A DNA stretch of 64,000 nt from Acinetobacter ihumii (GTDB lineage Bacteria > Pseudomonadota > Gammaproteobacteria > Pseudomonadales > Moraxellaceae): contig NZ_LR130760.1 in assembly GCF_900625095.1 (NCBI RefSeq), positions 1,375,224 through 1,439,223 of the forward strand, read 5' to 3'. The position numbers and the translations under genes were made by a program. Shown here piece by piece: positions 20,794-38,033 of the stretch. How positions within the stretch are numbered: position 1 is the stretch's first letter; every line of letters starts with the position of its first letter. The notes beneath the pieces are model-generated. The model searched no databases, was not told the DNA's origin, and saw nothing but the letters and a program-made list of their open reading frames with translations.

Positions 20794-23700
20794 TTTATAA
20801 TTGACGTATGCCGTCATGAACATGCTCCATTTTTTAAAGTAGCTGATCCTGAATTTCTAAATGACGTATGCCGTCATGAACCTAAGAACCTCCATGATGG
20901 TTATACACAATATTTTCTAAATGACGTATGCCGTCATGAACGAGCGTGGCTGGTGGTGGTCGCCGTCAAATCATTTCTAAATGACGTATGCCGTCATGAA
21001 CCCGTCAGTTGCATCAACACCGCCCAAAACATTTTTCTAAATGACGTATGCCGTCATGAACTACTGGATTTGCTAAAGCAGGTGTTTGACCTTTTTCTAA
21101 ATGACGTATGCCGTCATGAACGTTGCCCAATTTGAATTGATCGAATGCAGCATTTTCTAAATGACGTATGCCGTCATGAACATTGCAATATTGATTTGCT
21201 TGAGGGTATGCAATTTCTAAATGACGTATGCCGTCATGAACTCACTTCGAGTAGATCCGAGAACTCACCTATATTTCTAAATGACGTATGCCGTCATGAA
21301 CTGTTTAAAGCGGGTATTAAATACAAGAAATGTTTTCTAAATGACGTATGCCGTCATGAACTCAGCATTTTGAAGATGGTGAAATGATCGATTTTTCTAA
21401 ATGACGTATGCCGTCATGAACTGGTCGATTGCGCTGAGTCGGGAGCAATCACATTTCTAAATGACGTATGCCGTCATGAACAAATTTATGCTGCATGCAC
21501 ATGAGCGTGGGTTTTTCTAAATGACGTATGCCGTCATGAACCTTATGATCGTGTTGTGCCAGTGCCGTTTGCTTTTCTAAATGACGTATGCCGTCATGAA
21601 CTTTCTTCGCATTCTTATCTGCTGTGATTGTTTTTTCTAAATGACGTATGCCGTCATGAACTTTCACGCTGCTTTTGGGTAATGCGCTTTGTCTTTCTAA
21701 ATGACGTATGCCGTCATGAACATGCGTTGCAAGTTGAGCAGTCTTATCAGCGCTTTCTAAATGACGTATGCCGTCATGAACTAGACATCAAGGGGAATGA
21801 ATGGGAATTAATTTTCTAAATGACGTATGCCGTCATGAACGCATATTTTAACGAGTGAGTTAAAAAAATGGTTTTCTAAATGACGTATGCCGTCATGAAC
21901 TCGAAAAATCACGCACACGCTACAAGATTGCTTTTCTAAATGACGTATGCCGTCATGAACCCTTATCATTATTAATATATTCAATAAATTCTTTTCTAAA
22001 TGACGTATGCCGTCATGAACGCAATAAAGACTGTGATTGAAAGGGTGGGTGATTTCTAAATGACGTATGCCGTCATGAACAATCTTACTATCCAATACAA
22101 TCTGCGCTGGTCTTTCTAAATGACGTATGCCGTCATGAACGTTCTGATTGCTTTTTGTCTTGCATCTTTTGCTTTCTAAATGACGTATGCCGTCATGAAC
22201 AGCAGCCACTTTTGTATGTGTCACACAATCACCTTTCTAAATGACGTATGCCGTCATGAACACCTCAACACGCATAAAACTTTAATCAACATTTTTTCTA
22301 AATGACGTATGCCGTCATGAACATCTTTCTACAATGTCAGACGAAACACCGCAGTTTCTAAATGACGTATGCCGTCATGAACCAATGTTTATGAAGATGC
22401 CGACAATATTCAGTTTTCTAAATGACGTATGCCGTCATGAACAATACTTTTCCTGTCCAGAGCCTATTAGTCTTTTTCTAAATGACGTATGCCGTCATGA
22501 ACTTGGTTCATATGCCGGTGATTTCGAGTGGCAATTTCTAAATGACGTATGCCGTCATGAACCTTGGTGGCACATTTCGACAACAGTGGATATTTTTCTA
22601 AATGACGTATGCCGTCATGAACCAGATCTGCAAGGGTGGCGGCTTTCATAACAATTTCTAAATGACGTATGCCGTCATGAACTTAGTTAATTTTATTGAC
22701 GTAAAAACTAACTTTTTCTAAATGACGTATGCCGTCATGAACCGTCGCGATATTAATCGCATTTTGTTGACGTTTTTCTAAATGACGTATGCCGTCATGA
22801 ACGGGGTTTATCTAGAATTCTGTTAAGAATCAATTTTCTAAATGACGTATGCCGTCATGAACGATTTTTTATACAACGCAAAAGCCTGATAACATTTCTA
22901 AATGACGTATGCCGTCATGAACACACTTTCTTTTTTCTCATACCTGATTTTTAATTTCTAAATGACGTATGCCGTCATGAACGAGTTTTATCATAATGGC
23001 GAAAAGGTGGCTGTTTTCTAAATGACGTATGCCGTCATGAACATTGGTTTAAATACAACAATCATCGTGAACTCTTTCTAAATGACGTATGCCGTCATGA
23101 ACAAATAACTGAGCAGGTAAGAGTTTTGCCTAAACTTTCTAAATGACGTATGCCGTCATGAACGTACATTGCAAGTAACCGTTCACGCTGCTTTTTTTCT
23201 AAATGACGTATGCCGTCATGAACGCATATAGCCAACTTAGCAATGTATTACGATTTTTCTAAATGACGTATGCCGTCATGAACTGTCCTTTTGGTGCAGT
23301 GGGTGATCGTCTTTGTTTCTAAATGACGTATGCCGTCATGAACATGCTGATTTCCCGTGTGGTTGCCCTCGTCACTTTCTAAATGACGTATGCCGTCATG
23401 AACGTCGAGAAGCTCAAGACTTGTTTTTTGAGTTGTTTCTAAATGACGTATGCCGTCATGAACGCCAAAGCTAAGGCTTATCAGGCGCAGTTTGCTTTCT
23501 AAATGACGTATGCCGTCATGAACTCTTCAAACGAAGATTATTACATCGAAGATCTTTTTCTAAATGACGTATGCCGTCATGAACTAACACCTGTCTTGAT
23601 TTTGTTTTCGTAGTGATTTCTAAATGACGTATGCCGTCATGAACTTAAATTCTTTTTCGCTTCGAGAATATCCATATTTCTAAATGACGTATGCCGTCAT

Positions 23701-26700
23701 GAACACATAAACCCCGCTGACATACATGTTATTGGCTTTCTAAATGACGTATGCCGTCATGAACTGATAAAAGCCTTGGCTTCCTTAATTAGCTCATTTC
23801 TAAATGACGTATGCCGTCATGAACCAGGCTCAACACTCATAGGTATTGCACATAAATTTCTAAATGACGTATGCCGTCATGAACCATCTGGAATCTCAGT
23901 GAAAACGGACGGTACATTTCTAAATGACGTATGCCGTCATGAACTAGCAACGTCTGTTTGTATTAAGAATACGTTATTTCTAAATGACGTATGCCGTCAT
24001 GAACGATCCGTAGACATTATGCCCTTGGAGAATCTTTTTCTAAATGACGTATGCCGTCATGAACCCTTGAGTTGTCTGATTTCATCTTCTCTATGCTTTC
24101 TAAATGACGTATGCCGTCATGAACTTTCAAGGCATCAGCATCAATCATTTTTCTTTTTTTCTAAATGACGTATGCCGTCATGAACTAGAAAAAATATTTT
24201 ATAGAAATTTTTTGCTATTTCTAAATGACGTATGCCGTCATGAACATCTGGAACTCTGAAATTTTCCCCTTCCCCTTTTTCTAAATGACGTATGCCGTCA
24301 TGAACATTCATAAGCAGGATTGCCCCCGATGATTAATTTTTCTAAATGACGTATGCCGTCATGAACAACATGCAGAATTGCGATCTGGATAAGATTGATT
24401 TCTAAATGACGCATGCCGTCATGAACACATCAATCTGCATTATACGAACTGGAGGAGAATTTCTAAATGACGTATGCCGTCATGAACGGAAAAAGAACAA
24501 GCTTTCGAGATCGTTGCTAATTTCTAAATGACGTATGCCGTCATGAACTTTAAACAATTCAGAGTTAGCTTTGACCCATATTTTTAAATGACGTATGCCG
24601 TCATGAACGCCGTACTCGCACTTGCTTATCTTTTTGCAATTTTCTAAATGACGTATGCCGTCATGAACGCGCGTACCGATTGAACAGCAAAACTGGATTG
24701 CTTTCTAAATGACGTATGCCGTCATGAACTCCGCAGCAATCAGAACTTGATTAATCATCCCTTTCTAAATGACGTATGCCGTCATGAACTGAAGCTTGGT
24801 ATGAAGGCTGAGCAACGTGATTTTCTAAATGACGTATGCCGTCATGAACTTTGGTGCGATCTTTGGTAGGTAGCACTACATTTTCTAAATGACGTATGCC
24901 GTCATGAACTGTTAAATCCAAAACAGTTTCTATTTTTTCTTTTTCTAAATGACGTATGCCGTCATGAACACTGGCAATGACTGATTGATCATCATGTCGG
25001 CTTTCTAAATGACGTATGCCGTCATGAACAGCCTGAAAATACAAAACTAGCTCTGGCTACATTTCTAAATGACGTATGCCGTCATGAACATTTCTACTCA
25101 GTTCAGCACCAAATCATTTTTTTTCTAAATGACGTATGCCGTCATGAACAATAGGGAGGGTGGTCACTTCAAAAAGGGTATGTTTCTAAATGACGTATGC
25201 CGTCATGAACGTAATCGTTTGGTCGATGCGATGCAAGCTTGTTTTCTAAATGACGTATGCCGTCATGAACATTTTGCATTGCAAGTTGATCAGAATTAAT
25301 CTTTTCTAAATGACGTATGCCGTCATGAACAAAGGCATAGTAAAACTTTATATTCTGTTCGTTTTCTAAATGACGTATGCCGTCATGAACTCAGTTGCAT
25401 ATCTTCAACTTTCTGCCCTTGCTTTCTAAATGACGTATGCCGTCATGAACATATGAATGCTGCTGCAAACAAGTCAGCATCATTTCTAAATGACGTATGC
25501 CGTCATGAACTAAAAGAACACGCGTTACGCGGCTGGATAGATTTTCTAAATGACGTATGCCGTCATGAACGGATTTACAACACTTGGCGCAGGTGCGGTT
25601 TTTTTCTAAATGACGTATGCCGTCATGAACGGTCAAGTGTCTGACGTTGAACTACAAATTGTTTTCTAAATGACGTATGCCGTCATGAACATGAGCCATA
25701 TTGAATTATTGCGCGGCAAGAAATTTCTAAATGACGTATGCCGTCATGAACACGTTCTTGGAATCAATATTTGGTTTGCTTTTTTTCTAAATGACGTATG
25801 CCGTCATGAACGACCAAGTGGATACTTTAATTGATGCGATAGATTTCTAAATGACGTATGCCGTCATGAACATCCATTTTTGTATTCTATCTCGCATTTG
25901 GTGTTTCTAAATGACGTATGCCGTCATGAACTATCGGTCGCAGGAAAAAGAAAGGGGTTAGATTTTCTAAATGACGTATGCCGTCATGAACTATAATCTG
26001 AAGCAGGGGACGGAAAGCCTGCTTTTCTAAATGACGTATGCCGTCATGAACAAAGCGATTATGCTTGTATGGTGAGCGTTGGCTTTCTAAATGACGTATG
26101 CCGTCATGAACCATAAAGTAGGGCCATTTACTAGGATCATTTGTTTCTAAATGACGTATGCCGTCATGAACCATGAAGTAATTCAGCAATGTGATCATGA
26201 TCATTTCTAAATGACGTATGCCGTCATGAACAATCACAACATCTGGCATTCGCAATGCAGCGCATTTCTAAATGACGTATGCCGTCATGAACATGCTCAA
26301 CAGCAGGATGGTTATTCGCAGTTATTTCTAAATGACGTATGCCGTCATGAACCATAGCTAAACTGATTTTTAAGACTTGTTTTGTTTCTAAATGACGTAT
26401 GCCGTCATGAACGCACGGAAAAACTAACGTGGCGCGTTGTAATTTTTCTAAATGACGTATGCCGTCATGAACGAGTTTGCAAAGAAATTCTATACGGACG
26501 TTGATTTCTAAATGACGTATGCCGTCATGAACTGCCCTGAATATCGCTAATGCTCGTTTCCTCTTTTCTAAATGACGTATGCCGTCATGAACCTCAGTAT
26601 CAACGTCTTTACAGTTTAAAATCTTTTCTAAATGACGTATGCCGTCATGAACTGGCATTTGCTTCCCAAAAGTCATTCGTTCTATTTCTAAATGACGTAT

Positions 26701-28993
26701 GCCGTCATGAACATGTATGAGACACACAGATCAGTTGTGAATTGTTTCTAAATGACGTATGCCGTCATGAACTCGGGGGGGCACATGCAAGAGCATGAAA
26801 AAGTTTTCTAAATGACGTATGCCGTCATGAACCTTCAGGTACTGTTCTCCAGTCGTCAAGTAATTTTCTAAATGACGTATGCCGTCATGAACGTTGAGCA
26901 TGAATGCAATGAAGATAAATATCATTTCTAAATGACGTATGCCGTCATGAACTCAAATATTAGATCATTATCATAGTTATGAAATTTCTAAATGACGTAT
27001 GCCGTCATGAACTCAAAAAAGCAGGCTAATCACTGCAACAAAAATTTCTAAATGACGTATGCCGTCATGAACCCGTTGTGCTTGTTGTTGGCTGTTGGCC
27101 AGTATTTCTAAATGACGTATGCCGTCATGAACAAATCTTTAACTGCATCATTTAAGCCATCAACTTTCTAAATGACGTATGCCGTCATGAACCAAGCCTG
27201 CATATACATCTCGTTAATATCTTTTTTCTAAATGACGTATGCCGTCATGAACACCGTAGATGGTGGCGAGATAACCGCGGGGCTTTTCTAAATGACGTAT
27301 GCCGTCATGAACACGCAGATTTTGTCGAGTATTCGAGACGTTGCTTTCTAAATGACGTATGCCGTCATGAACCCGTTGCAAGTGGTATTTCAACATATGT
27401 GGTTTTTCTAAATGACGTATGCCGTCATGAACATACAGCGAGATCCAGTTGTAGGAGCTGTGTTTTTTCTAAATGACGTATGCCGTCATGAACAGTGCAT
27501 TATTAAATGCAAAAGGCGCGGTTATTTTCTAAATGACGTATGCCGTCATGAACTTGCATTACCGCATATTTGTGAAATTATGATTTTTCTAAATGACGTA
27601 TGCCGTCATGAACGAGCATAAAGTTCACACAGAATATGGCTCAAATTTCTAAATGACGTATGCCGTCATGAACTTCAACTGTGACACCTGCAAAACCTTT
27701 TTTCTTTTCTAAATGACGTATGCCGTCATGAACATTTAAGGTTTTTGCATTGTCGCTAAACCGTTTTTCTAAATGACGTATGCCGTCATGAACTCATTAA
27801 AGATGACGGCATGCCGATGGTTTCATTTCTAAATGACGTATGCCGTCATGAACTTGGTGTAGAAGCCGGTAATGTAATGGAGGTATTTCTAAATGACGTA
27901 TGCCGTCATGAACATTGATGCATGGGGTGTAACCTCACGCGGACATTTCTAAATGACGTATGCCGTCATGAACAATGACTGGCCTTGATACCGAGTGGCG
28001 CGATTTTTCTAAATGACGTATGCCGTCATGAACAATCACGGCGCGAACTGCATTGCCGATCATTTTTTCTAAATGACGTATGCCGTCATGAACTCGGCTG
28101 ATCTCAAACAAGTCACATTGGATCGTTTCTAAATGACGTATGCCGTCATGAACGCAGGCGGTGTGCCGTTTTTACCCAATAAGGCTTTCTAAATGACGTA
28201 TGCCGTCATGAACAACTCTACCGGGTATTGCGACTGGATCCGAATTTTCTAAATGACGTATGCCGTCATGAACAATCCCCCTTGTCGTTGCTCTTGCCGA
28301 ATCACTTTCTAAATGACGTATGCCGTCATGAACTGAGTGGCAATCGCGCACGGTTTTAATTCTAATTTCTAAATGACGTATGCCGTCATGAACTGACAAA
28401 GCTGTTCCGTTGGCGCTGAACACTGTTTCTAAATGACGTATGCCGTCATGAACTCAGTCTGCGTCACATAGAGTTCACCTTTAGCTTTCTAAATGACGTA
28501 TGCCGTCATGAACGGGGTTGGTGGGTTGTCCTATGCGAAAAGAGTTTTCTAAATGACGTATGCCGTCATGAACTTGTGCTATTTGGTCGTTCATAGTTCA
28601 TACCCTTTCTAAATGACGTATGCCGTCATGAACAAAAATTTAACAATCGTGAAGTGAAGTTGCGTTTTCTAAATGACGTATGCCGTCATGAACTATCTGA
28701 TCGACCGAAGTTATTTTTTGAGAGTTTTCTAAATGACGTATGCCGTCATGAACGCTGTGGTTCGCTTAGTCCCCATGAAGCCGAATTTCTAAATGACGTA
28801 TGCCGTCATGAACACGTTTTCACGGTCATATCTCTTATGAAGACTTTTCTAAATGACGTATGCCGTCATGAACTAATTGTTCCTACAGGTGCAACTGCGG
28901 CTGTGTTTCTAAATGACGTATGCCGTCATGAACCACAAATGTATTAATTGCAAAGCCTTTGGAAATTTCTAAATGACGTATGCCGTCATGAAC
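20794..28993 (-). CRISPR. Type I-F CRISPR array, 137 repeats and 136 spacers
   Basis: The 28-bp repeat on the plus strand is TTTCTAAA, TGACG, TATGC, CGTCA, TGAAC. On the transcribed minus strand it starts GTTCA, folds as TGACG-GCATA-CGTCA and ends in the handle TTTAGAAA. From the first repeat (20794-20821) to the last (28966-28993) I count 137 repeats. Following the drift of the repeat phase, 122 spacers are 32 nt, 13 are 33 nt and one (21782-21812) is 31 nt. The repeat at 20794 is degenerate (TTTATAAT at its handle end), which marks the trailer and puts the leader at 28994-29125 beside csy4. Single-base variants are at 24412 and 24584. Long open frames seen inside are translated repeats, not genes. 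Confidence 0.99.
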
Positions 28994-29125: not shown

Positions 29126-29737
29126 TTAAAACTCTGGAACAGTTGCTGTTCGACTTAGTCCATATGTTCCAAATTTTCCATCTTTTGCCTCATCAGCAAC
29201 AGATTTACCAATATATAACCTGTAAGGTCGATCTATATTTTCCTCACGTTTAGCACTTAAGCTTTTTAAACTTATATAAGGCTCAAATATAGGTTGTTCA
29301 ACATATTCTTTAAAATGTTGTTTGGCTTCATCCAAAGAAATATTGCGGCGCTTTGCCTGATGAGCAACTCTTTCATCTAAACTCATTTTAGGATTGACTC
29401 GATAATAATGAGCATATTCGGTAATTTTATCTTGAGGCACTTCGCGAGGTCTCGTCACATGCACATAGTCAATTAGTCTCTCTAACCATTTATCTAAATG
29501 AAGTTGCTGTAACTGATCTTCAGTATTAGCAAAGATACGCATTTTTGTCCCCAAAAAACCAAGTTTCTTTTGCTGATTGATACGATATTGCGGAAAAGAT
29601 ACACCAAAGGGTATTTTTTCCTGTTCATCAATATGTTCAACAAAAGCAATATGGAGCTGGGTGTAAACTTTTGACCAAAGAAAATACGCAGAAGTATCTT
29701 CATTAGGTAAGAGTGTAAGCTCAATATAATATTGCAT
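29126..29737 (-). CDS. csy4: Type I-F crRNA endonuclease Cas6f (Csy4)
   Basis: Csy4 cuts the precursor RNA at the 3' base of each repeat hairpin and stays bound to the crRNA 3' end. 203 aa, slightly longer than Pseudomonas Csy4 (about 187). The N-terminus YYIELTLLPNED and a His near residue 34 in FVEHIDEQ fit the ferredoxin-like catalytic domain. The C-terminus GTYGLSRTATVPEF is the family's typical ending. It overlaps csy3 by one base and is the last cas gene before the array. The hairpins in the creA element at 33526-33601 would be its other substrates. Confidence 0.93.
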   Translation of the reverse strand: MQYYIELTLLPNEDTSAYFLWSKVYTQLHIAFVEHIDEQEKIPFGVSFPQYRINQQKKLGFLGTKMRIFANTEDQLQQLHLDKWLERLIDYVHVTRPREVPQDKITEYAHYYRVNPKMSLDERVAHQAKRRNISLDEAKQHFKEYVEQPIFEPYISLKSLSAKREENIDRPYRLYIGKSVADEAKDGKFGTYGLSRTATVPEF

Positions 29738-30788: not shown

Positions 30789-31892
30789 TTAATATTCCTC
30801 ATTTTCATAATTTGTATAGTCATCAAATGATTGTTCTTCTGAGTCATCTGACAATAATTGAATGTTAAGTTTTGGTGCGAAAGGTTGAGTGAGTTGATAA
30901 ACACCATCTTTTGCTTCGGTACTATATGTCCATAAGATTTCGGTTAAATCCTCAATCCGATGCGGGCTTTGCCACTCCCCCAGACTCAATAAAGTTTCAA
31001 CAAAAGTTGCTGGATAGCGGTTGTCTCTTAAGCCTGTAACTGAACCTTTGTCTTGCAGTTCTGTTAATGCCGCATATCCAATTGGGATTGGTACTAACCA
31101 GCCTTTTAAATGCTCAGGACGAGACCGTACTTGCCAAATGCCTTTACGCTCTCCATCAACACCGAGTTGCGGCTGTTCTATACTGCAAAGATTTAGACGG
31201 CTGATATCAAGCAAAGTATCTAAGACATTCGGTTCATTTCCTTGTGTCTCTAAATAGGTTTGTTGCTTGCTTAAATATTTTTGATGGGCAAGCAATATTT
31301 CATGCCGATGCAACAATGCAAAACTTGGCAATAACCCATGACGCAACTTTTTAGTTTTAGCAACTGCATCAGACAGTGACCAATTGATCAATTTAGGCTT
31401 TATGCGTCGATGAGGAAAAATTGCCCCACCCGCCAAACGCATGCCATAAATCAACTGATTCATTTGTTGAGTTAAGCGTTGGGTTTGCTCATTTAAATCT
31501 TCATCATTGGCAGATAAATGTTGATCTAAATTATCACCACTCAAACCAATAATTAAACTGACTTCAAAATGCCCTTTACCCTCTTCCACCATCGCAGGGG
31601 TTGATCCATCAGACTCTAATGGATGACGAGCGAGATTGAGTTGATACGGTGAATAACGATAATCGCTACTTTTGGTCACTTGTGGGCTAAATTGATGACA
31701 CAGGATACCAACTCCACAACATTCCAGATGACGATATTGTTCTTGTTCATTCAGTTGACGCTGCAAAGCATTGGCAAAACCTGTAAATGCACTCGGTGCA
31801 GGAAATCCCCACGTCAAATGGCTACTGATAATAGACGCATTTTCGACTTGTAAACGAACAATATATAAGGCTTTAGGATAGGCATAACTCAT
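30789..31892 (-). CDS. csy2: Type I-F Cascade protein Cas5f (Csy2)
   Basis: Csy2 caps the crRNA 5' handle together with Csy1. 367 aa. N-terminal ALYIVRLQVENASIISSHLT and GFPAPSAFTGFANAL fit the Cas5f RRM; GGAIFPHRRIKP and the late CGVGILCH-type stretches are also family-like. Its ATG overlaps the csy1 stop by one base, so the csy genes form one tightly coupled operon. Confidence 0.94.
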   Translation of the reverse strand: MSYAYPKALYIVRLQVENASIISSHLTWGFPAPSAFTGFANALQRQLNEQEQYRHLECCGVGILCHQFSPQVTKSSDYRYSPYQLNLARHPLESDGSTPAMVEEGKGHFEVSLIIGLSGDNLDQHLSANDEDLNEQTQRLTQQMNQLIYGMRLAGGAIFPHRRIKPKLINWSLSDAVAKTKKLRHGLLPSFALLHRHEILLAHQKYLSKQQTYLETQGNEPNVLDTLLDISRLNLCSIEQPQLGVDGERKGIWQVRSRPEHLKGWLVPIPIGYAALTELQDKGSVTGLRDNRYPATFVETLLSLGEWQSPHRIEDLTEILWTYSTEAKDGVYQLTQPFAPKLNIQLLSDDSEEQSFDDYTNYENEEY

Positions 31893-33220
31893 TAGGCAAA
31901 TTCCTCTTTGAGTAATTGCAACTTATCTCGTAAAGCAATTGACCATACCCGAGCTTCATGATCATCCAGATCAGCTAATTTGCCTTTGGTGGTTAAAATC
32001 TTGTTTAGCCAATTGCCAAAGTTATACCCCACTTCAGTATGCCAATCCCGCTCACGATAATCGTCTAACCATTCCTGTTCTTCATCAGTTAAAGTATTTT
32101 GATCTTCTTTCTCAAAAAGCTCTTCACGATAGCCACGATCTAACCAAAAACTTTCAGCACGGTTAAATTTACGTTGTGATTCAAGTGTCCAACCTGAATT
32201 TGCACTTTGTTGAAGTTCAAGGCTCATATCAATGACACAATCCACAAGCTGATCGACTAATTCATCACGTTCACTTCTAAATTCATCATTATTTTTATGC
32301 TCTTTTCGATACATACGAATAATAGAACTTAAAATCGGTTTTACATCCTTACGATTACTTAAATACCCTGTAAACACTGAATCTGATTTTGGCAATTCCA
32401 CCATCAGTCCTTGCCAAACAGGAGGTAACGATGGCAATAACCACATCGAACCACGGCGATCGCTATTCAGTTGTGAAATGTTCTGGGGCTTTGATCCGCC
32501 ATAATTATGAACCAGTAAGTTTGGGTATTCTCGGCTTTCCTGCGTATGATGCAAACCCTTAAAGCGAGCTTCACGCAAAGCCTTATTTTGCTCACCAAAA
32601 CGATCATGTGAAATTTGCTGATAAACCCGATGTACCAATGCACTTGGATATAAAATTACCAAGATGTGATAGTCATTCTTTTTGACAGGAAAATAAACCT
32701 GCTTGGATAATCGCCCTGCATTTAATTCCGATGGGTTTTCACTAAATGCTAAAAACCGTTTAAAGCGAATCTCAGCCTGTTCAGCATTGCTTGCAAGTGC
32801 AGCGATAAGGTCTTGATCGGCTTTTAGTAAACGTTCAAGTAAAGAGATACCCTCAAACTTTTGCCGTAACAGCTTAAAAACATCCAAAACCGCAGCATTA
32901 CCAATCACATCAGCTTCATGCTCCAGTCCTTGTGAACCGACAAAATCATGAGTCTTGTTCTGCCCTGCATAAAACATGGCCGACGCTTTTGAACTAGGAT
33001 GATGCTGTTTAGGCGTATGAGTTGCCAAACGAATTTGACTAATGCGTAAACTCGCATCCTCTAACCATGTTTCGGGTTGATATTTTTCAAGCAGTTTTTC
33101 ACGTTCAGTAAAGTCATCTTCTTTCAACTTCTCCAACTTTTCATTTAAACGCCCCTGAATGTATTGCTCAATCAAGGCTCGAATGGTTGCTGGTGAAGCA
33201 TCTCCGAGTTCTTCTGTCAT
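31892..33220 (-). CDS. csy1: Type I-F Cascade large subunit Cas8f (Csy1)
   Basis: Csy1 recognises the CC PAM and recruits Cas2-3. 442 aa. The region THPKQHHPSSKASAMFY and the stretch NYGGSKPQNISQLNSDRRGS are characteristic of Csy1. It is the first gene of csy1-2-3-4, with AAGGGAAAATA before the ATG. Its upstream region (33221-33525) is shared with the creT element. Read-through from the creT promoter could feed the operon. Confidence 0.94.
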   Translation of the reverse strand: MTEELGDASPATIRALIEQYIQGRLNEKLEKLKEDDFTEREKLLEKYQPETWLEDASLRISQIRLATHTPKQHHPSSKASAMFYAGQNKTHDFVGSQGLEHEADVIGNAAVLDVFKLLRQKFEGISLLERLLKADQDLIAALASNAEQAEIRFKRFLAFSENPSELNAGRLSKQVYFPVKKNDYHILVILYPSALVHRVYQQISHDRFGEQNKALREARFKGLHHTQESREYPNLLVHNYGGSKPQNISQLNSDRRGSMWLLPSLPPVWQGLMVELPKSDSVFTGYLSNRKDVKPILSSIIRMYRKEHKNNDEFRSERDELVDQLVDCVIDMSLELQQSANSGWTLESQRKFNRAESFWLDRGYREELFEKEDQNTLTDEEQEWLDDYRERDWHTEVGYNFGNWLNKILTTKGKLADLDDHEARVWSIALRDKLQLLKEEFA

Positions 33221-33272
33221 TATTTTCCCTTACTTTTACAAAGTAAATTATTTTTTTAAAGCCATCTTTGTT

Positions 33273-33305
33273 ATCATTTACGATAGTTTAACTACCGTAA
33301 ATGAT
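33273..33305. terminator. 33-bp inverted repeat between creT and csy1
   Basis: Perfect 10-bp arms ATCATTTACG (33273-33282) and CGTAAATGAT (33296-33305), with a further five of six pairs inside. It lies just past the creT mini-ORF on the minus strand and 53 bases before csy1. It may be the end of the creT RNA or an operator for the csy operon. There is no T-run, so termination is only one option. Confidence 0.45.
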
Positions 33306-33322
33306 GCTGGTTACCCAACTGT

Positions 33323-33358
33323 TTAGACTCTTCTAAACAAATGTGTGTTAAACATCAT
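33323..33358 (-). CDS. creT mini-ORF with tandem AGA codons
   Basis: ATG ATG start, 11 codons, peptide MMFNTHLFRRV, stop TAA. The AGGAAGGAG ribosome site lies four bases before the first ATG and seven before the second, an unusually strong site for this window. Both Arg codons are AGA and they sit in the loop side of a 7-bp hairpin (arms at 33321-33327 and 33332-33338). The peptide itself need not matter; the expected effect is ribosome stalling and trapping of the AGA-reading tRNA. Confidence 0.65.
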   Translation of the reverse strand: MMFNTHLFRRV

Positions 33359-33447
33359 TTTTCTCCTTCCTCTATCGAGGTATGTGGGATCTGGCGAGAC
33401 CGGTATTTAACAATTTAAAAGACTGCAATCTTTTAAATTTTGCCTAT

Positions 33448-33469
33448 TCTTAACTTAATCACTCATAGG
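33448..33469 (-). promoter_or_regulatory. CreA target 1, at the creT promoter
   Basis: On the minus strand this reads CC followed by TATGAGTGATTAAGTTAAGA. Against the CreA pseudo-spacer, 14 of 20 positions match, and positions 1-11 match except position 6. Mismatches at 6, 12 and 18 fall on bases that type I complexes flip out. The CC is the type I-F PAM on the correct side. Partial pairing would allow binding and repression without cleavage. Confidence 0.72.
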
Positions 33470-33493
33470 CTTGAAATGTAATATGGACTGGAT

Positions 33494-33522
33494 TTGTTAC
33501 TTTGGCAAGTCCTTTCTATGCT
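33494..33522 (+). promoter_or_regulatory. Possible creA promoter
   Basis: TTGTTA at 33494-33499, 17 bases, TATGCT at 33517-33522. Transcription would start near 33529, just before the stem of the first pseudo-repeat, so a very short precursor would suffice. Confidence 0.45.
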
Positions 33523-33525
33523 TTT

Positions 33526-33601
33526 CTTTACTGTTACACAAACAGCTTAGAAATATGAATGATTCAAATTTGATTTCAATACCGCACAGGTAGATTATTC
33601 T
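33526..33601 (+). ncRNA. creA: CreA-like guide RNA: two degenerate type I-F repeats around a 20-nt pseudo-spacer
   Basis: Pseudo-repeat 1 (33526-33553, 28 nt) has the exact I-F layout: five bases, stem-loop CTGTT-ACACA-AACAG, handle CTTAGAAA (array handle TTTAGAAA, 7 of 8). The rest has diverged (13 of 28 identities in all). Pseudo-repeat 2 (33574-33601) keeps the other half: TTTCA (array GTTCA) and a stem-loop TACC-GCACA-GGTA (array loop GCATA), with 12 identities in the first 18 bases and little in the handle. Between them is the pseudo-spacer TATGAATGATTCAAATTTGA. This split decay, in which one repeat keeps the 5' handle and the other the 3' hairpin, is the known pattern of CreA genes. Csy4 processing would give one crRNA-like guide with a short spacer. 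It points away from creT and lies inside the cas locus. Confidence 0.8.
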
Positions 33602-33608
33602 CCTTCAC

Positions 33609-33651
33609 AAGATATTTTTGTCTTATGTAAGTAAATAGACAAAAGTATCTT
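33609..33651 (+). terminator. Long hairpin after creA
   Basis: A 15-bp stem (33609-33623 with 33637-33651, one G.T-type mismatch) and a 13-base loop. It directly follows the second pseudo-repeat and may end the creA transcript. It is AT-rich and followed by TATTAG, so it is a weak terminator at best. Confidence 0.5.
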
Positions 33652-33779
33652 TATTAGCTTCACCCAAACATATAGTTTTTATCTATTTGTTTTATATTAA
33701 TTTTAGCACTTTTATTGCCTACTAATTAGTATAGTAGGAATATTTCTTTACCAAACATATCTGTTACCATATAGAAAGC

Positions 33780-33808
33780 TTGAAGTATTGGAATTAAAGC
33801 TATAATAT
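33780..33808 (+). promoter_or_regulatory. Promoter of the small-protein pair
   Basis: TTGAAG at 33780-33785 with TATAAT at 33801-33806 (15-base spacer), or TAATAT at 33803-33808 (17-base spacer). It is the only good plus-strand promoter before the two small genes, about 110 bases from the first ATG. The leader contains an AGGGGAG site followed by tiny frames (for example GTG at 33861 with two Cys codons) that could be another mini-ORF. Confidence 0.6.
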
Positions 33809-33822
33809 TAAACAATCATAGG
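33789..33822 (-). promoter_or_regulatory. CreA target 2, over the -10 box of the small-protein promoter
   Basis: On the minus strand the sequence is CC (33821-33822), then TATGATTGTTTAATATTATA (33801-33820). The pseudo-spacer matches 14 of these 20 bases, 13 of them in the first 17, again with mismatches at positions 6, 12 and 18. The matched bases cover TATAAT. This is the same PAM and the same seed pattern as target 1. Confidence 0.65.
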
Positions 33823-33916
33823 TTAATTTTTTTCAAATAATTAATCTACACAGGGGAGCAGTGTGTTGCCCGTCATAAATTAGGCTGTTAGAGTGATATG
33901 CAGTCTGGAGGTGTGT

Positions 33917-34105
33917 ATGATGCATTTTATATGCAATACCCAATCTAAAGAAACTTTGGACAAAGAGCGTCCAAAAAACGAGCATCTAGGTGTTCACATT
34001 GACCGCTTATTATCATTGACTCACGAAGAATCTTATATAATGCCTGAGGGATTAACTCGAGAGCAAAGACGATTGTGGGCGAAGAAAAACCTCAAAACAA
34101 AATAA
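33917..34105 (+). CDS. Small protein, possible antitoxin (62 aa)
   Basis: The ATG at 33917 is preceded by GGAGG at 33907-33911, which is better than the GTG at 33893. Sequence: MMHFICNTQSKETLDKERP, a central IDRLLSLTHEESY and a basic C-terminus LTREQRRLWAKKN. I do not recognise a family. The order (small charged protein first, larger protein second), the 31-base overlap with the next gene and the shared promoter are those of a type II toxin-antitoxin operon. It lies on the strand opposite to all cas genes. Confidence 0.55.
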   Translation: MMHFICNTQSKETLDKERPKNEHLGVHIDRLLSLTHEESYIMPEGLTREQRRLWAKKNLKTK

Positions 34106-34488
34106 ACTACACGGTTGAGTTTGGTGCAACATTTAATCTTTATTACTCTGAAAGATACTCAAGTAAGACTCTTGATAAAATTGATGATTTTATCGAACAT
34201 TATGAAAAATTTGGTCTAAAAGACTGGAAAGGTAAAATCTCTCCCTCTGACCGTGTACCTGATACATATCCAAATCAACAGAATCTAATTGCAAAAGCAA
34301 AAAAATATAATTTATGGCATGTCCATATTGGTGAACCAAAATGGCAAAGACCTCTTCATGACCAATATTTAGTTTCCGAGTGGGTTTTACATTTTCAAAA
34401 AATCAATAACTACCATATAAAACTACTTGAACTAAGTTGGCATAACCCAATGGAATTACCTAGTGATGAGATGATTAATGAAGAATAA
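34075..34488 (+). CDS. Small protein, possible YafO-like toxin (137 aa)
   Basis: Starts at GTG 34075 inside the end of the previous gene and in another frame. The C-terminal half (WHVHIGEPKW, then DQYLVSEWVLHF, then IKLLELSWHNPMELPSD) resembles the layout of YafO-type ribosome-dependent mRNA interferases, in which a His-x-His strand precedes the catalytic core. This is a weak, pattern-level resemblance, and a ParE/RelE-like or unrelated protein is possible. No membrane segments or signal peptide. It stops 35 bases before the end of the opposing cas2-3 gene. Confidence 0.5.
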   Translation: MGEEKPQNKINYTVEFGATFNLYYSERYSSKTLDKIDDFIEHYEKFGLKDWKGKISPSDRVPDTYPNQQNLIAKAKKYNLWHVHIGEPKWQRPLHDQYLVSEWVLHFQKINNYHIKLLELSWHNPMELPSDEMINEE

Positions 34489-34523
34489 TCAAATGAGAAG
34501 ATAGACTATTCATGTCACTAAAG

Positions 34524-37500
34524 TTATTTTTCCCTTATAAATCCTAACCAATCGTGATAGAGCCATTTCTTTTGTTCTGCCAGTTTGGGTAAATTCAGGC
34601 TTAAATAGCGAGAACAATTTTCAGACCAGCTTCTCTCTACTGAGGTCGCATCTAAATAATTCTGTAAAGCAATTTCAGGCTTCTGATTCGGCCAGCAATG
34701 AATTTGTGAATTATTTGCCAATTCAATTCGCCTCACCAAACTTTCAACCAGTAACCAGTTTCCTGTTTTTTCATTGTATTGATAAAGCTTTAAAAGCTGT
34801 TCTTCTTCCTCTGCTCTTAAAGCGGTAAAGAATTCAGCCTGTGACTGCCGAAATCGGCTTAGTGTTTGTAAAATGCCTGTGTAATGAATGGGCGTATTCC
34901 AGAAACTATAGGCAGGAAATTTAATCGGTGACATATGAGTAGAACGCATATCAGGACAAATCCCATGCCCCAACAAAATATGGTGCATACGATCATGTTC
35001 TAAATCGGCTAAACGTGGATAACCCGACTTTTCATAGAACTGTTTTAGATAACTTGCAGGCGGCTGGATGAGTCGGGCAATTGAATCCAGTTGTTTAAAA
35101 TGCTCAAGATTCATCAGTCCTGCATTTTTTGTATCATCTATTCCCCGTAAAAAATGTCGATTCTGCTTAAACTCAAATCCTGTTGCCTCAAAGCCAGGGC
35201 GAGAGAAACAGGCTTGTTGAGGATGTCTGAAATGTCGGATATTGGTTTCCATAATAAAGACATTAGGATGGCAATAAGGTTCTGTACGATGCCGACGTGC
35301 TCGACCAGAAGCCTGAATAATTGAACGCATGGAGGAGGGTTCAATCATCATCCAGTCATAATCATGGTCACGACCTACCTCACAGACGGGCGAAGCCAAG
35401 ACCAGAATAATCTGTTTTTGCTCAGGATATTTTTGCAGCCAGCCTTGTACTAAATGATGGTCATGTGGTTGCTTTCCATTGTTCCGATCTAAAATTTCAT
35501 CCAGATATTTTTCAATATTGGCTCGAATCAGCAATGGAAACCGAGAGTGATACACACATAAATGGATACGAGTATCTGCATCAATTTTTTGTTTTAATAA
35601 CAGTTGGGCAATCTCTGCCATTGGGTCAATATTGGCAAAACGCACTAATCCCACACTGTATTGTTTACTGGTTTTAGGGTCTGTAATGGCATTTAGCTGA
35701 TGCGCTTTTAAGCTAGTAGTCAAAATCTGTTGAGTAAATACATCTTGCCATTTTTCAGGTGCAGGAATTTGTCTAGGTAAACCGACCCATTCTAAAGTAC
35801 GTCTTTGTGTTGCTGCTGCATGTTCATTTAAATAAACTGCCCGTTTTTTGGTAAATTGCCGATGCGCTTTTTCAAAGATAGGATTGGCTTCTGAATTTTT
35901 GACTGTGCCATCACATGGAATCACTTGATGAGTAATACTTTTTTCATTTTCATCAAACCATGCCGCAATAATCGGCTGATTGGCTTGGGTACGATGAAGA
36001 TTATAAAACTTGCGTCCAGAACTATAGGCCAGATATAAACCATTAATTTCAGCAGGTGTTAAAGTCGCAGAAGACAATAACACCCGACTACCCAATAAGC
36101 CTGCCCAATAAACCAAACGAGTCAGTGCATAATAATCATCTGGCGAAAAATCATCGGGTTCATCAAAAACCAAATCGGATGACATCAGGCGTAACATCGG
36201 TGCAATTTGTCGCCCACCGCGTGTGCTTTCAGTGGCAGGAATCAAATGGTCAATGGTGCAACATAATATTGGACTCATCAGCATTTTTTTGACCTGATGA
36301 TTGCCTTTAAGCCACTTTGCAAATAAATGATCCTGATTGAGGATGCCCTCAAAGTCGAGTTCGAAATCTTCAAAATCAACCTGTAGATCAGGTTCAAATA
36401 GCCCTATTAAAGATTCTGAACCCATCATTTTGGCTAAGGCAGGGTTTTTAATTGGATCAGGGTTTTCTTCATCCTGAATAAGTCGTTCCGAACCAACTTG
36501 GCTATACTGTTCAAATATTTCCTTAACCGCACCGCCACCCACCATAATGGCTAAATCAGTGTCATCCAGATTTAATTTTTGCCGTAAAGCTTTGCCTGTT
36601 TGTAAAGTTAAGGTTCTTAAACCCAACGCAATATTAAACCGTGCCCCTTTTTCAGGGTCAGCCAGACCATACATAATTCGAGTATTGGCTAGGGTTTTTC
36701 CTCGCCCTGTAGATGCTAAATTTACACCGAAAAATCCATGATTCGGATAGTTTTTCTGAATACTGCACGCTTCCTGATAGGACTTATCTTGCCATTTATA
36801 ATAAGCATTGCTGGTTTTTCCCTCTAAAGCCCGTTGTTTTGGTAGACGATTAAATAACTCATCTAAACGCGTCAATGCGCCCATAAGTTGACGAGCAGAC
36901 TGACTGACACCAATCAAATGATCATCTAAAGGCTGTTTTAATTCACCAAATTTATTGGTATTGGCATAACAAGGATATTTCGGATCATGCCATTTAGGTG
37001 TGGCCTCACAACTTGAATAATAATGATCTGATAACATCAAAACTAAACGGGAAACATGACTTAAATAAGGATCAGACAAATTAGTCGCTGGATAGGCTTT
37101 ATAGAGTTGCAGTAGCTTCACTGCACAACTATTCATTTCCTTACACCATGTCTGGCTGTTAAAAGGAATATGCTCAGCTTTTATTTTCCAGCATTGCTGA
37201 ATGTCTTTGTCCTTATTTTTATCTTCAGCATTATAATGGTGTGGATAACACCATTCAGAATTCAGGTCATTTAATACCGTTGCAAATTTAATAGCTTCAT
37301 AGCCCCTATCTGTATTTTTATTTTTGCTTAACATGTAATTAGGAATCGGTAAACGATGATGTGAAACAATCAACCATGCCACCAGTTTGGCAATATCAGG
37401 AAGTTGCTGAAACGGTGACTGATGTTGTGTCTGGTCAGAATGATCTTTAATCATATTTCCTAACCACACGTAATCCTCATTTTGAGGTGAAATTTTGATT

Positions 37501-38033
37501 AATTTTTCAATCCAGAACTCATCTTTGTCACCACATGATTTTACAAAGGTCTCAAATAATCTTAAAGAAATCCATTCATGTCGAAATGGATCAGCAACAG
37601 GCTTTTTATTATATTTTGCATCGGCTATTTTCTTGGCAAAAAACGGATTGATCTTGCCAAAGTCATGGAATAGTGCAGCAATTCGACTCAACACAGCAAT
37701 CAATGGAGCAGTTTGCCAATCATTATCACTATAATCCAGTTTAATCGGCTTGGCTGTCCGGTTGACAGGGACGACACCCTCACTATTAAATTTATTACGA
37801 TTCCCCACAATCCAAACCAATTCTGTTCGTCTACGTGTGGCAACCCGATGACAAGCGATTGCTGCATTTTTACTTGGCTTTTTAAGTAGTAGTTTTTTAA
37901 TTGCCAATAAACCATCTTCAGTAATTGTGGTTTGCCATGTGTTATCCCCGATCCGTTCTGCAAAGGCATCCAGTACACGACGAGTATGGGCAAGTGCCTT
38001 TTTCTCACATTGCGAAACAAAAATCACAATCAT
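34524..38033 (-). CDS. cas3: Type I-F Cas2-Cas3 fusion nuclease-helicase
   Basis: This protein unwinds and degrades target DNA recruited by Cascade and, through its Cas2 part, supports spacer acquisition with Cas1. 1169 aa. The Cas2 domain is at the N-terminus (MIVIFVSQCEKKALAHTRR, about residues 1-95). The HD nuclease domain follows with LFHDFGKINPFF (about 140) and ISHHRLPIP. The SF2 helicase has Walker A NLASTGRGKTLANTR (about 440), the DEAD-type DEPDD and LLSSATLTPAE, then QASGRARRHR. All key motifs are present. It is 16 bases after cas1. The creTA and small-protein region separates it from csy1. Confidence 0.96.
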   Translation of the reverse strand: MIVIFVSQCEKKALAHTRRVLDAFAERIGDNTWQTTITEDGLLAIKKLLLKKPSKNAAIACHRVATRRRTELVWIVGNRNKFNSEGVVPVNRTAKPIKLDYSDNDWQTAPLIAVLSRIAALFHDFGKINPFFAKKIADAKYNKKPVADPFRHEWISLRLFETFVKSCGDKDEFWIEKLIKISPQNEDYVWLGNMIKDHSDQTQHQSPFQQLPDIAKLVAWLIVSHHRLPIPNYMLSKNKNTDRGYEAIKFATVLNDLNSEWCYPHHYNAEDKNKDKDIQQCWKIKAEHIPFNSQTWCKEMNSCAVKLLQLYKAYPATNLSDPYLSHVSRLVLMLSDHYYSSCEATPKWHDPKYPCYANTNKFGELKQPLDDHLIGVSQSARQLMGALTRLDELFNRLPKQRALEGKTSNAYYKWQDKSYQEACSIQKNYPNHGFFGVNLASTGRGKTLANTRIMYGLADPEKGARFNIALGLRTLTLQTGKALRQKLNLDDTDLAIMVGGGAVKEIFEQYSQVGSERLIQDEENPDPIKNPALAKMMGSESLIGLFEPDLQVDFEDFELDFEGILNQDHLFAKWLKGNHQVKKMLMSPILCCTIDHLIPATESTRGGRQIAPMLRLMSSDLVFDEPDDFSPDDYYALTRLVYWAGLLGSRVLLSSATLTPAEINGLYLAYSSGRKFYNLHRTQANQPIIAAWFDENEKSITHQVIPCDGTVKNSEANPIFEKAHRQFTKKRAVYLNEHAAATQRRTLEWVGLPRQIPAPEKWQDVFTQQILTTSLKAHQLNAITDPKTSKQYSVGLVRFANIDPMAEIAQLLLKQKIDADTRIHLCVYHSRFPLLIRANIEKYLDEILDRNNGKQPHDHHLVQGWLQKYPEQKQIILVLASPVCEVGRDHDYDWMMIEPSSMRSIIQASGRARRHRTEPYCHPNVFIMETNIRHFRHPQQACFSRPGFEATGFEFKQNRHFLRGIDDTKNAGLMNLEHFKQLDSIARLIQPPASYLKQFYEKSGYPRLADLEHDRMHHILLGHGICPDMRSTHMSPIKFPAYSFWNTPIHYTGILQTLSRFRQSQAEFFTALRAEEEEQLLKLYQYNEKTGNWLLVESLVRRIELANNSQIHCWPNQKPEIALQNYLDATSVERSWSENCSRYLSLNLPKLAEQKKWLYHDWLGFIREK

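Follow-up and report, generated by a model that had tools for sequence, protein, structure and literature searches.

CreTA, a type VIII toxin–antitoxin module, makes cells dependent on their CRISPR-Cas system. Passages of PMC10097628 (2023) describe creTA in the cas3–csy1 gap of three Acinetobacter I-F loci: WCHA45, LoGeW2-3, and ANC3789. Each module has a PsiR1 and a PsiR2, a guide that partly matches a CC-flanked target close by, and, in divergent orientation, a 33-bp mini-ORF with a Shine-Dalgarno sequence. CreT kills cells as RNA; its toxicity depends on loop letters of the hairpin around its start codon, and its stop codon is dispensable for toxicity. The WCHA45 guide pairs at 17 of 20 positions (not at 6, 11, and 18), and pairs 9, 14, 15, and 17 are each needed singly. 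WCHA45 creA works poorly with the system of A. baumannii AYE until PsiR2 is replaced; with PsiR2 replaced, it exerted Csy4-dependent repression of creT in AYE, and small-RNA sequencing of WCHA45 CreA with the host repeat in place of PsiR2 gave a mature form of 8 + 20 + 20 nt. The array repeats of the three published loci depart from that of AYE in 40% of their letters; PsiR2 is about 90% like the array repeat. A further 19 modules are mentioned in the supplement (all PMC10097628).

Two other kinds of CreA-like guides are related. In CrePA, as outlined in a passage of PMC12737573, the CreA guide counters CreP, a protein toxin that typically contains a KilA-N domain. CreR is a cas-regulating guide RNA, for which types I-B, I-E, and V-A are named in the relevant passage of PMC13131331. 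No guide that acts on an RNA toxin together with a protein toxin, and no type I-F CreR, was found in the literature passages searched, which were mostly open without subscription.

We analyzed a 64,000-nt stretch of Acinetobacter ihumii DNA, referred to below as the window. Its creA with a 20-nt guide in the cas3–csy1 gap is of a known kind, already published for Acinetobacter I-F loci: the gap, the repeat-like hairpins, the guide length, a CC-flanked target, and a 33-bp mini-ORF are as in the CreTA described in PMC10097628. Unlike the modules in those passages, it has a further target, located on an inserted operon predicted to encode a protein toxin and its antitoxin, and its Csy4 and array repeat come from a different lineage; PsiR2 is array-like at 15 of 28 letters vs. 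about 90%. The guide has 14 pairs, compared with 17 in WCHA45. Letter 8 of the CreT loop is also changed. The second target, the captured predicted toxin pair, the exchanged csy4 and array, and the guides of creT-less relatives aimed upstream of csy1 all go beyond the Acinetobacter modules of these passages. The window is probably not one of the three published loci because its repeat is near the AYE type and its PsiR2 has so little likeness to the array repeat; it may be among the 19 further modules. As in CrePA, a guide matches the promoter-like site of a gene for a predicted protein toxin; here the protein has a predicted RelE fold, Pfam gave no KilA-N domain, and the gene has a small partner and lies beside creT. 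As with CreR, a crRNA-like RNA is encoded by a mini-CRISPR in the cas locus, and creT-less relatives aim the guide upstream of csy1; the window differs in that creT lies between target and csy1, and type I-F is not among the types named in the CreR passage.

Organization of the cas locus and creA

The following features were located:
20794–28993, minus strand, CRISPR array with 137 repeats at up to 5 mismatches (134 exact) and 136 spacers
29126–29737, minus strand, csy4, of a different lineage than csy1–csy3
31892–33220, minus strand, csy1 (Pfam Cas_Csy1)
33494–33522, plus strand, predicted promoter-like site of creA, TTGTTA-17-TATGCT
33526–33553, plus strand, PsiR1 of creA, a degenerate I-F repeat with a hairpin and the 8-nt handle CTTAGAAA
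33554–33573, plus strand, PsiS (guide) of creA, 20 nt, TATGAATGATTCAAATTTGA
33574–33601, plus strand, PsiR2 of creA, with a hairpin at 33579–33593 and a predicted Csy4 cut after 33593
34524–38033, minus strand, cas2-3 (family search)

The gap between cas2-3 and csy1, both on the minus strand, is 1306 nt long and holds creA on the plus strand. Downstream of csy1 follow csy2, csy3, csy4, and then the array. The initial annotation had taken 33526–33601 for a creA gene, and this identity was borne out by the cas3–csy1 gap, the two degenerate repeats, the 20-nt guide, and the nearby CC-flanked target, as in the modules of the PMC10097628 passages. Its first element was described accurately (28 nt, spacing 5+5+5+5+8, stem-loop, and handle): PsiR1 reads CTTTA CTGTT ACACA AACAG CTTAGAAA, with 5/5 stem pairs. 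The second element, given as TTTCA with the stem-loop TACC-GCACA-GGTA, is likewise present. PsiR2 reads TTTCA ATACC GCACA GGTAG followed by 8 nt that are no longer handle-like; 4 of 5 pairs form in the 5+5+5 register, and the basal A-G is open. The identity to the array repeat GTTCATGACGGCATACGTCATTTAGAAA (minus strand) is 13/28 letters for PsiR1 and 15/28 for PsiR2. The RNA that had been predicted, from 33546 to about 33593, has the same form as the mature CreA of WCHA45 in PMC10097628 (8 + 20 + 20 nt). An Rfam search of the whole window returned two tRNAs and nothing else. The initial annotation had overlooked creT, both targets, and the differing lineage of Csy4 and the array repeat vs. creA.

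creT and the first target of CreA

On the csy1 side of creA, we found a target, T1, and a creT gene:
33263–33435, minus strand, creT RNA region, matched by a covariance model with E 3.4e-33
33273–33306, minus strand, strong hairpin between creT and csy1 (z −6.8 for 33262–33310)
33323–33355, minus strand, creT mini-ORF of 33 bp, read from the sequence
33359–33371, minus strand, Shine-Dalgarno-like stretch of creT, AGGAAGGAG
33448–33467, minus strand, T1, CC at 33468–33469, 14/20 letters matched, seed 10/10
33480–33508, minus strand, predicted promoter-like site of creT, TTGCCA-17-CATATT, ending 10 nt before the CC of T1

Read on the minus strand, CC (33469–33468) is followed by TATGAGTGATTAAGTTAAGA (33467–33448). 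The guide matches T1 at positions 1–5, 7–11, 13, 16, 19, and 20, the seed being counted without position 6. Downstream of T1 on this strand lie, in order, the Shine-Dalgarno-like stretch, the mini-ORF, the strong hairpin, and csy1. A mini-ORF divergent from creA, preceded by a Shine-Dalgarno sequence and placed downstream of the target, is the Acinetobacter form of CreTA.

The covariance model of creT was built from seven sequences, the window among them. Their alignment has five common hairpins, with two-sided changes in 8 of 35 pairs. One of the hairpins surrounds the start codon, in agreement with the published form; another lies near the end of the mini-ORF. The stem pairs of the window's start-codon hairpin are kept in the alignment, and the single-sequence fold favors another register (z 0). 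Letter 8 of the CreT loop is A in the window and G in the six other creT. With strict filters that weak matches could escape, the model recovered only its seven founding loci among 175 genus genomes and only the window among 369 genomes drawn across the class. Common to all seven loci are the stop codon of the mini-ORF and a pair of Arg codons (AGA AGA/AGG). A near-perfect palindrome (33412–33439), which folds with z −4.1 (33402–33442), lies in the creT leader downstream of T1.

Co-variation of guides and targets in related loci

A Csy1 search of 175 genus genomes gave 36 with a match, 11 of which, at 71–100% identity, are treated here as the clade. PsiR1, guide, and PsiR2 were present in all 11 clade loci, each with a CC-flanked target in its own gap that matched 12–17 letters across the first 18–20. 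In a shuffle test (2000 per locus), the observed target score was never reached in nine loci and was reached once in two. The guides vary widely among the loci, and each pairs with its own target: 155 guide–target matches were counted over 18 positions and 11 loci; none of 20,000 permutations reached this number (mean 91, maximum 134).

Positions 1–5, 9, and 16 were paired in 11/11 loci, and positions 6, 12, and 18 in 4/11, 2/11, and 6/11, respectively. Pairing at these three positions thus amounted to 12/33 vs. 159/187 elsewhere (Fisher 2e-8, a rough value since the loci are related). In type I guides, every sixth letter is flipped out of the hybrid, so mismatches at every sixth position are the expected footprint of a Csy-type complex.

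Conservation of the two hairpins across Acinetobacter I-F loci, which had been proposed as a check, was found: both stems are kept with two-sided changes. For PsiR1, such changes with pairing kept occurred in 5/5 pairs (8 loci, the three with a PsiR1 loop other than 5 nt being left out), and for PsiR2 in 2/5 pairs (11 loci, 8 distinct rows).

In seven of the 11 loci creT is present (the window, G077, G114, G117, G120, G108, and G091), and in four it is absent (S54, A47, G174, and G072). A twelfth locus, G153, with a Csy1 only 27% identical, has two repeat-like hairpins and no creT match in a 232-nt gap; its CC-flanked target has a 10/10 seed and 17/20 matched letters, counting into the first PsiR2 letters. 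In 18 other loci with distant Csy1, the aligned cas3–csy1 gaps measured 10–160 nt. The creA guides in L041, L042, and L043 (G117, G120, and G091) are 31 nt long, vs. 18–20 nt in the others.

Inserted gene pair and likely second target of CreA

Between the PsiR2 hairpin and cas2-3, the window carries an insert of about 930 nt (33594–34523), which starts directly after the hairpin, accounts for the length of the gap, and is found in none of the 10 close relatives. It contains the following:
33780–33806, plus strand, predicted promoter-like site ahead of the inserted operon, TTGAAG-15-TATAAT, which T2 overlaps
33801–33820, minus strand, T2, the second CreA target, CC at 33821–33822, 14/20 letters matched, seed 9/10
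33917–34105, plus strand, predicted antitoxin, 62-aa ORF with a 31-nt overlap with the next gene and a motif in common with a 56-aa ORF of pMUT1
34075–34488, plus strand, predicted RelE-fold toxin, 137-aa ORF, named from its predicted fold

Fold matches of the 137-aa protein point to RelE/YoeB/YafQ/HigB, and a Foldseek search with its model gave no match at E 0.001 or better. The protein resembles these type II toxins in its predicted fold, in the overlapping small upstream gene, and in having relatives on small plasmids; it differs in belonging to no Pfam or NCBIfam family, and its role as a toxin is a prediction. A YafO-type toxin, the first idea for this protein, was dropped: no family search backed YafO, and the fold matches favor the RelE/YoeB/YafQ/HigB group. 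Searches of the inserted ORFs against Pfam, NCBIfam, and PADLOC gave nothing above chance, and no KilA-N domain was found in them with Pfam at E up to 5, which returned one chance-level match alone. The 62-aa ORF matched only itself. The insert DNA had no similarity to plasmids at the search sensitivity used; its upstream part matched its own genome and short stretches of 24–41 nt in nine others among the 175 genus genomes.

Small plasmids carry relatives of the pair. On one of them, the cryptic plasmid pMUT1 of E. coli Nissle 1917, overlapping 56-aa and 142-aa ORFs, annotated as hypothetical, lie beside a divergent helix-turn-helix gene (L081, 1855–2417) and are a candidate plasmid-keeping toxin–antitoxin pair. 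The small partner gene overlaps the toxin gene by 37 nt on pMUT1 and by 31 nt in the window. Another Acinetobacter genome, G148, encodes six distant relatives of the 137-aa protein (L060, L065, L067, L068, L069, and L070), each with a short antitoxin-like ORF upstream.

T2 reads, on the minus strand, CC (33822–33821) followed by TATGATTGTTTAATATTATA (33820–33801), and mismatches the guide at positions 6, 9, 12, 14, 18, and 19. It is as good a target as T1, both being CC-flanked with 14/20 guide letters, and it overlies the TATAAT of the promoter-like sequence that scored best ahead of the inserted genes (scored with approximate base frequencies). The 3.3-Mb genome contains 12 sites with CC and at least 9/10 seed letters, including T1 and T2, which lie 353 bp apart; the strictest form common to both occurs three times. 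A third genomic site with CC and 9/10 seed letters lies in L083.

T2 is a single instance in one genome, picked up as the second-best match of a scan, and it may have arisen by chance beside a selfish toxin–antitoxin pair that landed there, CreA acting on creT alone as in an ordinary creTA. We regard this explanation as evenly balanced between true and false. It agrees with the occurrence of T2 in one genome only, with relatives of the pair on small plasmids where no CreA is known, with the 10 other genomic sites having CC and 9/10 seed letters, and with the lack of pair 9. However, a site of T2 quality arose in only 0.2–0.3% of 3000 shuffles of the insert and in at most 0.03% of 3000 shuffles of its 323-nt upstream part, the mismatches include positions 6, 12, and 18, which do not matter, and the covered promoter-like sequence is the best in the upstream part. 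A match of T2 level on the upstream part was reached by 0/95 array spacers and by 0.2% of shuffled guides; on the insert, the guides of the 10 relatives scored at most 20 and the window's own guide 23. In 467 kb of other Acinetobacter DNA, one site scored equal to or better than T2, which corresponds to about 0.002 expected for the insert.

Exchange of csy4 and the array

In trees of Csy1 and Csy3 (24 loci), the 11 clade loci grouped together with support of 99/98 and 100/99. In the Csy4 tree (24 loci), the window, S54, A47, and G077 joined L046, L049, and G153 (100/100), L049 and G153 being long branches, apart from the other seven. The window Csy4 is 75% identical to that of L046 and 38–47% identical to those of the seven other clade members. 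The array repeats group as Csy4 does. The lineage of csy4 and the array thus differs from that of csy1–csy3 and cas2-3, which indicates that csy4 and the array were exchanged and creA stayed. Where the array loop is GCATA (four loci), the PsiR2 loop reads GCAYA; the other seven loci have ATRTA in PsiR2. The PsiR2 stems of the four resemble the older type. The array repeat of the window differs at 2/28 letters from GTTCATGGCGGCATACGCCATTTAGAAA, which occurs in L034/L036, L046, and L049 and which we take to be the AYE repeat.

Because WCHA45 creA is poor with the AYE system, the exchange would have called for an adapted creA or for a creT that was weakened or lost. creT is absent from S54 and A47; in the window, the CreT loop is altered and T1 has fewer pairs. 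That creA persisted through the exchange is of interest, as the repeat replacement in the PMC10097628 passages suggests danger unless creA adapts or creT weakens.

The window module might also be a relic of the exchange, with CreA no longer processed and creT decayed. The foreign Csy4 in a locus whose Csy1 and Csy3 group with all 11, the open basal pair of PsiR2, the weaker T1, and the changed CreT loop would fit such decay. Against decay stand the intact CC, the full set of 10 seed letters outside position 6, a PsiR1 stem that pairs throughout, a PsiR2 loop of the class found in the new array, and an insert that begins directly after the PsiR2 hairpin; we consider a relic quite improbable.

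Proposed action of CreA

It is highly probable that 33526–33601 is creA and that its guide represses creT via T1, and likely also the inserted predicted RelE-fold operon via T2. Csy4 is predicted to cut out the CreA RNA, and the Csy complex would be loaded with the 20-nt guide. CreA-Csy would repress creT at T1 (33448–33467) and likely also the predicted toxin–antitoxin operon at T2 (33801–33820), partial guide pairing presumably repressing without cutting. The CRISPR machinery would then likely keep both neighbors silent, and its loss would likely harm the cell: losing the Csy complex, by mutation or through an anti-CRISPR protein, would free the toxins, tying the cell to CRISPR-Cas. At the sequence level, the repeats, the guide, both CC-flanked matches, the creT mini-ORF with its hairpins, the guide–target co-variation, and the sixth-position pairing loss are established. 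Csy4-dependent repression and CreT killing, demonstrated for the WCHA45 homolog, are carried over to the window by analogy; the proposal supposes that WCHA45 behavior holds here too and that T2 works.

Several features speak against it. T1 is matched at 14/20 letters, where five relatives have 17/20, and its pairs 14, 15, and 17 are missing; T2 lacks pair 9; the basal pair of PsiR2 is open; CreT loop letter 8 is changed; and the window Csy4 is of the lineage in which, according to the PMC10097628 passages, WCHA45-type creA worked poorly. If the guide does command the newly landed protein toxin pair, CRISPR addiction would grow by capture, a selfish plasmid-type toxin pair being wired into it, and the addiction would hold even after decay of the RNA toxin.

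Loci without creT and possible control of the cas genes

In the four creT-less clade loci, the distance from the target to the aligned start of csy1 is 18–53 nt, and the promoter-like site that the target overlaps ranks best in 3/4 and second best in 1/4. G153 has the same layout. Between S54 and A47, guide and target change together at positions 9, 14, and 16. Judging from this arrangement, the guides of the creT-less loci (four close and one distant) likely repress their own cas genes in the manner of CreR; all five are I-F candidates for this kind of control by a guide. The creT-less loci are found in both subclades and in the distant G153; creT was lost on two or more occasions, or else the toxin-free form is older, and the trees fit either history. 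Guides and targets evolve together in this clade, which contains forms with and without the toxin and so amounts to a natural experiment.

A similar self-control could be suspected in the window, CreA mainly repressing transcription from the creT promoter into csy1 and thereby tuning the cas operon, with creT as a passenger or faded toxin. The layout of the four creT-less relatives and G153 argues for it, as do the weakened CreT loop and T1 pairing. In the window, however, T1 and csy1 are parted by 227 nt, with creT and the strong hairpin between them, and seven loci retain both the RNA hairpins and the mini-ORF, stop included. For the window, we hold this explanation to be unlikely, though less so than a relic. 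Repression of creT by CreA remains the preferred reading. Its widest form is tentative and in our view somewhat more doubtful than probable: one guide would serve as antitoxin to an RNA toxin (creT, via T1) and to a captured protein toxin–antitoxin operon (via T2), and the guides of the creT-less clade loci would be aimed at the cas operon. The arrangement of creA without creT and with the target upstream of csy1 was seen in L004/L033, L005/L034, L008, L013, and L045.
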